64,000 nt of DNA, taken from Nevskiaceae bacterium. GTDB taxonomy: Bacteria > Pseudomonadota > Gammaproteobacteria > Nevskiales > Nevskiaceae. The stretch lies in the NCBI GenBank assembly GCA_008012115.1, contig SSEB01000001.1, positions 1 through 64,000 on the forward strand. Reading direction: 5' to 3'. The notes under the pieces are model-generated. The model made no database searches. It worked only from the letters and a program-made list of their open reading frames with translations, and was not told the origin of the DNA. Both the position numbers and the translations under genes were made by a program. This document shows, one piece after another, positions 1,441-61,107 of the stretch; positions within the stretch are counted from its first letter, which is position 1; every line of letters begins with the position of its first letter.

Positions 1441-1552
1441 CCACCCGCTCTAGCCACAGTGCCTGGGGAAAACGTTATTAAATATTGATCTATTTTAAAT
1501 TAGATAAATAATTAATCACAAACCGATTGCGACTTCCAGTGACAGCGGGTGA
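1441..1552. repeat. 112-bp TIR/AT-core intergenic element, copy 1
   Basis: CCACCCGCT at 1441-1449, CAGCGGGTGA at the right end, AT-rich core between GTT (34-36) and CAC (77-79); length 112 bp. Confidence 0.88.
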
Positions 1553-6481: not shown

Positions 6482-6593
6482 TCACCCGCTATCGCTGCCG
6501 GGAGTGCACGGGATGTTATTTATTATTTAATGAATTAATAATCGACTAATATATTAAAACAAAATGATGGTGCATCACGGCATCAGCGGGTGG
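6482..6593. repeat. 112-bp TIR/AT-core intergenic element, copy 2
   Basis: TCACCCGCT...AGCGGGTGG; GTT at 34-36, AAC at 77-79, G at 63; length 112 bp. Confidence 0.92.
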
Positions 6594-20081: not shown

Positions 20082-20193
20082 CCACCCGCCATCGTGGATG
20101 CCGGCCTTCAGATAGTTAATATATATAGATAATTTTAATAAATGATCAATAAATTAAAACAATTCTGGCGAGGTCATAGGGCACAGCGGGTGG
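20082..20193. repeat. 112-bp TIR/AT-core intergenic element, copy 3
   Basis: CCACCCGCC...AGCGGGTGG; GTT at 34-36, AAC at 77-79, G at 63; length 112 bp. Confidence 0.92.
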
Positions 20194-26864: not shown

Positions 26865-26976
26865 CCACCCGCTGCGCTTGTGACCGATATCGCAATGGTT
26901 TTAATATGTTTAATAGATAAAAATTATTTAAATATAAATAAACATTTTCCCCAGGGGCGGATGCCAGAGCGGGTGT
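26865..26976. repeat. 112-bp TIR/AT-core intergenic element, copy 4
   Basis: CCACCCGCT...AGCGGGTGT; GTT at 34-36, AAC at 77-79; length 112 bp. Confidence 0.9.
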
Positions 26977-29807: not shown

Positions 29808-29919
29808 CCACCCGCTGTCACTGCCCACGCAGGGCAGGGTGTTATATAAAATAAATCAAATTAATAAATAATAAATAAAATAAAACATTTCCCCTAAGCC
29901 AACCGGCGACAGCGGGTGG
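29808..29919. repeat. 112-bp TIR/AT-core intergenic element, copy 5
   Basis: CCACCCGCTG...CAGCGGGTGG; GTT at 34-36, AAC at 77-79, C at 50; length 112 bp. Confidence 0.93.
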
Positions 29920-35318: not shown

Positions 35319-35522
35319 GAGGGCCGATCCTGTTTGCGGGAGGCGCCGTGCCTGCACCGGAAATCGCAGGGCCACAGGCTACGAAGGCATCGCATTCAAG
35401 TAAAGCAGTGCCCGCTTCCATCGGGCGCGGTGACCACGAAGTTGGGGTTGGGCGATGCCTGACCCGCGTGAACGAAACCCGCGCGCAGGCCGGTTTCATC
35501 GGCGCAGCGCAGGCTGACGCCG

Positions 35523-35634
35523 CCACCCGCTCTTGCCGTTTTACCTGGGGAAAGTGTTATTAATTATTTATCGTATTTTAAATTGATAAATAAAATATAA
35601 CAGACCTGAAATCCAGAATGGCCAGAGCGGGTGG
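35523..35634. repeat. 112-bp TIR/AT-core intergenic element, copy 6
   Basis: CCACCCGCT...AGCGGGTGG; GTTATTAATTATTTATCG...GATAAATAAAATATAAC; length 112 bp. Confidence 0.94.
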
Positions 35635-35730
35635 ATGGTTTTGAGGCGCGTCGCAGGCAAAAAGCCAACGGAATGTCTACCGGCGTCGGTGTGACGCCGG
35701 TGTCGAGGACGACTGGTGGACGCGGAGGTT

Positions 35731-53480: not shown

Positions 53481-53592
53481 CCACCCGCTAGGCGGAGTTC
53501 CCCAGGAAAGATTGTTTTAAAATATATATCGTTTATATTTTTGTATTATAATTAATAACAATATCTGTGCGACGCTCAGCCGCAGCGGGTGG
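53481..53592. repeat. 112-bp TIR/AT-core intergenic element, copy 7
   Basis: CCACCCGCT...AGCGGGTGG; GTT at 34-36, AAC at 77-79, C50/G63; length 112 bp. Confidence 0.94.
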
Positions 53593-56421: not shown

Positions 56422-56533
56422 CCACCCGCTGTAGCGATTTCCCCTAGGCAATTAGTTATTAATTATTATACAAATTTATATTTGATAAATATTTTATAAC
56501 ATTCATAAGCGCCGCCATGCCAACAGCGGGTGG
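56422..56533. repeat. 112-bp TIR/AT-core intergenic element, copy 8
   Basis: CCACCCGCTG...CAGCGGGTGG; GTT at 34-36, AAC at 77-79, C50/G63; length 112 bp. Confidence 0.94.
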
Positions 56534-60995: not shown

Positions 60996-61107
60996 TCACC
61001 CGCTGACCTCCGGGCGGGTTGCCAGGCCGTTATAAAAAATCAAACGAAAATTTAATCGTTATATATTTAATAACGATTCTGCGGCCCTGCGACCGGCGAG
61101 CGGGTGG
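60996..61107. repeat. 112-bp TIR/AT-core intergenic element, copy 9
   Basis: TCACCCGCTG...AGCGGGTGG; GTT at 34-36, AAC at 77-79, C50/G63; length 112 bp. Confidence 0.92.

Follow-up and report, generated by a model that had tools for sequence, protein, structure and literature searches.

What is a 112-bp sequence that is framed by inverted repeats, built around an almost pure A/T core, and repeated nine times within 64 kb of a bacterial genome? The question is raised by the first 64,000 nucleotides of contig SSEB01000001.1 of a Nevskiaceae bacterium (assembly GCA_008012115.1; hereafter the window), and in particular by the copy at positions 35523..35634, which an earlier note had read as a protein-binding or recombination site of two half-sites. 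That observation is confirmed, and it is part of a larger phenomenon that extends across the whole genome. The explanation that we prefer, and in which we place roughly even confidence, is that of a maintained dyad-symmetric site at which a putative complex would bend or wrap about 230 bp every ~8 kb, probably organising supercoiling.

Anatomy and copy number

Coordinates below are those of the window, and features have no strand unless one is given. In the focal element (copy 6), CCACCCGCTCT...AGAGCGGGTGG flank the A/T core. The left outer recognition word, CCACCCGCT (35523..35531, + strand), comprises columns 1-9, of which 2-9 are nearly invariant, and is usually preceded by CG. It is followed by a left arm of 24 bp (35532..35555), fixed in length and nearly free in sequence, which in this copy bears an optional motif, TTTYCCTGGGGAAA (35540..35553, + strand; columns 18-31). 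The 46-bp A/T core, GTT-N40-AAC (35556..35601), has its dyad between 35578 and 35579 and CG/CR steps at columns 50-51 and 62-63, and is succeeded by a right arm of 24 bp, again free in sequence (35602..35625), and by the right outer recognition word AGCGGGTGG (35626..35634, - strand). The remaining copies in the window lie at 1441..1552 (copy 1), 6482..6593 (copy 2), 20082..20193 (copy 3), 26865..26976 (copy 4), 29808..29919 (copy 5), 53481..53592 (copy 7), 56422..56533 (copy 8) and 60996..61107 (copy 9). A recount of these nine copies reproduced the figures given previously: a length of 112 bp in 9/9, GTT at columns 34-36 in 9/9, AAC at columns 77-79 in 8/9 (CAC in copy 1), C50 in 6/9, G63 in 7/9, and 35-39 A/T bases among the 40 of columns 37-76.

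A search of the 3.25-Mb genome for the pattern of terminal inverted repeats plus GTT/AAC returned 367 forward and 366 reverse matches (reversed-pattern control: 1 and 0), and 363 on each strand at up to 2 mismatches (control: 0 and 0), giving a total of ~370 copies, or about one per 8 kb; a 113-bp version of the pattern fits four more places. We read 1.26 Mb (39% of the genome) base by base as stretches, and of the 151 copies found there 143 measure 112 bp, 4 measure 111 bp, 2 measure 110 bp and 2 measure 113 bp. The layout common to them is CCACCCGCT / 24 free bases / GTT / 40 A/T-rich bases / AAC / 24 free bases / AGCGGGTGG. Among 99 aligned copies, columns 2-9 and 104-111 are conserved at 97-100%, G34, T35, A78 and C79 are invariant, columns 36 and 77 exceed 90%, and G and C precede the left word at -1 and -2 in 82% and 68% of copies respectively, while little constraint is seen in columns 10-33 and 80-103 beyond mild preferences near their ends. 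That length should be held while arm sequence is free is as expected if the arms are spacers of a DNA-protein complex.

The expectation that the columns singled out in the window are more constrained to G/C than their neighbours is borne out by the invariance of G34 and C79 in the 99 curated copies and by the core of 143 copies, in which columns 50-51 and 62-63 alone are G/C-rich (0.46-0.61; remaining columns <=0.17). A CG/CR step, at 50-51 and at 62-63, describes the feature better than the single letters C50 and G63 do. Covariation between mirror positions, which the earlier note proposed as a test, is absent from the terminal repeats and the arms, but a weak though real excess exists at columns 46-51/62-67 (for the pair 50/63, a match of 0.59 against 0.46 expected; z = 3.4).

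TpA steps are depleted at columns 40-43 and AA/TT steps are enriched within the core, which is to say that it contains short A-tracts. No A/T hexamer is more strongly depleted than TATAAT, which occurs 28 times in columns 29-84 of the 143 copies where 75 would be expected (z = -5.7; in copy 6 these columns are 35551-35606), so that A/T content is kept while the promoter word is shunned, which suggests that core A/T is wanted for mechanics and that spurious promoters are selected against. The optional motif TTTYCCTGGGGAAA occupies one arm in 60 of the 143 copies (~42%) and both arms in 1, where by our own arithmetic about 7 would be expected under arm independence, and its orientation has no clear pattern with respect to neighbouring genes. 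It is frequent on the contig of the window (19/28 copies) and rare on another contig, C1 (4/27).

Placement along the chromosome

With genes called by our own caller, all examined copies lie between genes, and coding overlap never exceeds 32 bp. The flanking genes of the first 106 copies occur in every orientation (34 --, 33 ++, 22 +- and 15 -+). Spacing is far more even than chance, with a coefficient of variation of 0.48 (computed without the contig that bears the copy-free stretch described below) against 0.90-0.94 for random intergenic placement. Gaps below 4 kb number 17, against about 50 expected and a minimum of 35 in 1000 draws, gaps below 2 kb number 4 against about 26, and none of the 1000 random draws was as regular as the observed spacing.

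A 67-kb stretch of lower GC (G000:C5, about 47-114 kb; L099-L102) is free of copies, and encodes metal P-type ATPases, RND pumps, an outer-membrane efflux protein and an FtsH-like protease. It is a probable acquired metal-efflux island, and the absence of the element from it fits a maintained site and insertion alike.

A helically phased A/T wave in the flanks

Averaged over aligned copies, rather than in copy 6 alone, A/T content outside the element oscillates with a period that fits best at about 10.5 bp, in equal phase to left and right, in zones that for copy 6 correspond to 35463..35522 on the left and, in mirror image, 35635..35694 on the right. Maxima fall at columns 118, 129, 139, 150, 160 and 171 (dyad at 56.5), and the wave is strong at 62-94 bp from the dyad, clear to ~115 bp and faint to ~200 bp (in phase near column 255). 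Its projection per arm is 0.100 (t = 19.3; 87% of 282 arms positive), compared with <=0.021 at random positions and 0.0025 at element-free junctions. Closer in, at about 27-62 bp from the dyad, A/T peaks are ~11.7 bp apart, an interval longer than that of planar DNA.

Phased A/T beyond the recognition words implies that DNA is bent outside the element. Of the intrinsic curvature that the earlier note had raised, only a moderate net amount was recovered by a crude wedge-model calculation, and a simple intrinsically curved loop apex was not supported, for in this model the core and the flanks bend oppositely. Such opposed bends favour a path shaped by protein over a passively curved apex.

Part of the wave appears to be older than the element. 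In coding flanks (columns 147-217), its amplitude relative to base variance is, by our own division, about equal across the three codon positions, and element-free orthologues in the congener described below have the wave at codon positions 1-2 and not 3 (35 gene ends, a small sample). Together these observations point to elements having settled where phased DNA pre-existed; sites with phasing were probably picked first, through either insertion or selection, and tuned afterwards, although the data are suggestive only. Because an insertion mechanism would give the same pattern, this counts against the maintained site that we prefer.

Occurrence in related genomes and the question of mobility

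The full form of the element is found in one genome only. The pattern, at up to 2 mismatches, is present in none of the 85 genomes of the order besides this one, viral contigs and phages yielded no match, plasmids yielded one partial A/T match only, which is irrelevant, and a scan of genome contigs gave, among the matches listed, only a chance coding match lacking the A/T core (L041). As far as searched, the element thus appears confined to this genus.

The sole congener (G001; GC about 55%, ~80% protein identity) carries a sparser set, roughly four times less dense and with worn ends. Its exact GTT/AAC cores are all 45 or 46 bp long (n = 15 in 800 kb; control, 7 of mixed length), the wave is present at the phase prespecified from the first genome (t = 2.6-2.8), and end words survive in some copies, e.g. 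CACCCGCA/TGCGGGTG (16/16). At syntenic junctions, where both neighbours are adjacent in both species, 7/26 share the element and 19/26 are without it in the congener. Six of the seven were identified by the congener core and the seventh was spotted by eye and rescored; about 1 would be expected by chance, given about 26 cores among 800-900 junctions. Several of the element-free junctions are short, with gaps of -1, 6, 17 and 41 nt. At the seventh shared junction the two species align through the element over 1.3 kb at 79%, the end words differ between them (TTGCCGCT/AGCGGCAG vs CACCCGCT/AGCGGGTG), and a conserved 20-codon frame, ending PLSPSWRWQL*, takes in the left end word and arm. Given the lower density in the congener, about one quarter, and the absence at 19/26 junctions, the genus does not depend on a dense array.

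Several further observations concern these relatives. The frame at the seventh junction, MTxxTAxxRxPLSPSWRWQL* (G000:C19:182907, and G001:C19 at about 78.8 kb), runs into the core in both species, resembles a trp leader peptide and lies downstream of the end of an rpe-like gene. In the congener, the word from the first genome also makes compact hairpins, e.g. CCACCCGCAGTTTGCGGGTGG, which resemble ordinary hairpin repeats (G001:C15, stretch from 140001, at about 68.7 kb; G001:C19 at about 301.9 kb). A neighbouring genus (G008, G019, G027, G032) has A/T cores that stand singly, as candidate members only; in two of its species (L159 and L162, in G008 and G019) such an isolated 46-bp island, A/T-rich and GTT...AAC-like amid GC-rich DNA, occupies syntenic positions, and its sequence has turned over between flanks about 86% identical.

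Could the element then be mobile? A MITE-like transposon would have CCACCCGCT as its terminal inverted repeat, a transposase acting in trans, a preference for bent intergenic targets, and target immunity as the source of the even spacing. The terminal inverted repeats (CCACCCGCT/AGCGGGTGG), the intergenic location, the lack of an ORF and the high copy number in one species all suit such an origin, as do the short element-free junctions of the congener and a flank wave that seems partly pre-existing. However, arms are unshared among the 143 copies, the best arm match between any two of them being 32/48 bases (shuffled maximum, 30), and target-site duplications are not in excess at k = 2-10, and consequently the element is not a recently copied repeat, an exclusion that does not extend to ancient spread. 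Moreover, both 8-bp end words are perfect in 90/106 copies in spite of random arms, a combination that needs selection on each copy. The seven positions common to the congener, the absence from the other genomes of the order, and the absence from those viral contigs, phages and plasmids that were searched also speak against mobility, which we consider unlikely. ERIC, REP/BIME, RIME, Correia, BOX, RUP and MITE families likewise number tens to hundreds of copies, which are partly palindromic and lie between genes. Their copies share full-length sequence by copying and are not known to be evenly spaced, whereas copies of the present element have only the end words, GTT/AAC and A/T content in common, with unrelated arms, fixed length and phased flanks.

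Comparison with gyrase sites and other known systems

Somewhat less probable again, and in our view unlikely, is a strong site for gyrase or another type II topoisomerase, in which the core would be the gate, the arms and flanks would wrap around the GyrA C-terminal domains, and each copy, one per 8 kb, would pump supercoils or act as a brake on them. The gyrase motif of E. coli is a degenerate 130 bp, with a 36-bp centre, two 47-bp wings and a GC periodicity of 10.75 bp, and BIME-2 repeats serve as gyrase sites (PMC6379681); the ~11.7-bp interval between inner A/T peaks would also be in keeping with gyrase. The E. coli motif, the Mu SGS and BIME-2 share with the element a long, dyad-like form and a wing periodicity of ~10-11 bp in GC/AT, and BIME-2 is in addition dispersed, intergenic and of proposed topological role (PMC6379681, PMC3820752). 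Periodic wings are present around the core, but here they reach about 230 bp or more, against 130-150 bp for gyrase-type sites; a motif of ~130 bp is too short for phased flanks that are strong at 62-94 bp and visible at least 115 bp from the dyad, beyond the gyrase footprint. The element also has fixed 8-bp words at ±52 bp, which the degenerate motif lacks and which, to our knowledge, gyrase does not read, and it is evenly spaced along the chromosome. Gyrase is universal, whereas the element is genus-confined as far as seen, and the GyrA and ParC open frames of this genome are of ordinary length, which speaks against an unusual gyrase.

Multi-copy, non-coding, non-randomly placed and partly conserved in position, the element is a candidate chromosome-organising site. 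The systems matS/MatP, parS/ParB, SBS/SlmA and KOPS/FtsK are likewise multi-copy non-coding sites that are read by protein and organise the chromosome; yet matS, parS, SBS and KOPS are short, and regional or polarised, whereas the element is 112 bp long and evenly spread, with helical phasing beyond its ends. A-tract clusters, A/T runs phased at ~10-11 bp and tied to curvature and nucleoid packing (PMC3431218), resemble its flanks but are a statistical, genome-wide signal, whereas the phase of the present wave is tied to one particular sequence element. In plectoneme-pinning sequences, curvature over about 70 bp can fix where the tip of a supercoil forms (PMC6301789); for the element, our crude model gives only moderate net curvature, opposed between core and flanks. 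In the searches and the open-access literature consulted, we found no described equivalent.

RNA folding, gene expression and recombination

It is very improbable that the fold of the inverted repeat, as a structured RNA or a cruciform, is itself the function. Copy 6 does fold far better than shuffled sequences (z = -8.4), and three other copies do so to a lesser degree (z from -2.8 to -3.9), but covariation is lacking between mirror pairs of the arms, and pairing within the core (0.66) is close to expectation (0.635), so that the fold follows from the invariant ends and the A/T core; the element also occurs at all gene orientations, divergent junctions included. Nor was any Rfam family matched in the window or compensatory covariation seen in the arms, as would befit a REP/BIME/ERIC-type repeat. 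Cruciform extrusion, which the earlier note had entertained, is not supported as the conserved property, since mirror columns barely covary; weak covariation of this kind indicates a DNA dyad and not a hairpin code, though some copies fold well as RNA.

A part in gene expression, as bidirectional terminator, promoter pair or regulator site, deserves hardly any credence: copies are intergenic and convergent junctions are mildly over-represented (22/104 copies vs 105/758 junctions), but every gene orientation occurs, a GC stem with a T-run is absent, the -10 hexamer TATAAT is strongly avoided, and even spacing is unexpected for an operon part. The suggestion of a recombination site is not supported, as there are no exchange-type length variants, no XerCD half-site was found (the XerD half-site TTATGTTAA occurs in the core of 0/143 copies), and positions are partly conserved between species. 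A scan of the 143 copies for motifs of known nucleoid proteins, as had been proposed, likewise drew a blank: IHF (2 copies, 3.8 expected), Fis (3, 6.5 expected), matS (0), parS (0), LexA (0) and DnaA (1, 0.9 expected) are not enriched, nor are CRP and Lrp words. A Chi-like reading of AGCGGGTGG was rejected, the word occurring outside elements 13 times against 16 expected, and E. coli Chi never inside them. The E. coli Chi word itself, GCTGGTGG, is found 311 times in 1.26 Mb, ~2x the 148 expected, all outside elements.

A putative DNA-wrapping site

We return to the maintained, dyad-symmetric site. The proposal of a two-fold-symmetric binding site in an inverted-repeat frame is well supported by rigid spacing combined with sequence-free arms, by the invariance of CACCCGCT and GTT/AAC, and by the phasing of the flanks relative to the dyad. 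Where length is fixed but sequence is free, two recognition words must be keeping their distance and helical phase, as contacts on one complex would; together with bending outside the element, this phasing of the words points to a two-fold-symmetric complex that may wrap about 230 bp. Counted from the dyad in either direction, a putative sequence-specific complex would touch GTT/AAC after about 22 bp and CACCCGCT after about 52 bp. It would bend or wrap some 230 bp, made up of the A/T core, the arms and no less than 60 bp of flanking DNA per side. Set between genes roughly every 8 kb, the ~370 complexes would most probably anchor, constrain or sense supercoils and so organise the chromosome. 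Of this picture, the number, geometry and symmetry of the elements, their even intergenic placement, the phasing of their flanks and their partial conservation in the congener are observed, while the protein, the wrapping and the architectural role are inferred.

The size of supercoiling domains in E. coli and Salmonella has been put near 10 kb (PMC3820752). As the ~8-kb period is in this range, a supercoil anchor, brake or sensor would be the most economical role. Bacterial supercoiling domains of ~10 kb are usually described as stochastic and without fixed sequence boundary. More tentatively, and at somewhat less than even confidence, we propose a dedicated system, in which ~370 built-in wrapping sites would write the size of supercoiling domains into the DNA, in analogy to a positioned nucleosome or an insulator.

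Whatever its role, an element that keeps a base-exact length of 112 bp, leaves half of its sequence free and extends its phase at least 100 bp outward is unlike known dispersed repeats. If it is truly an evenly spaced, rigid wrapping site, it would point to an undescribed DNA-wrapping protein, and a domain size encoded in DNA would become directly testable.
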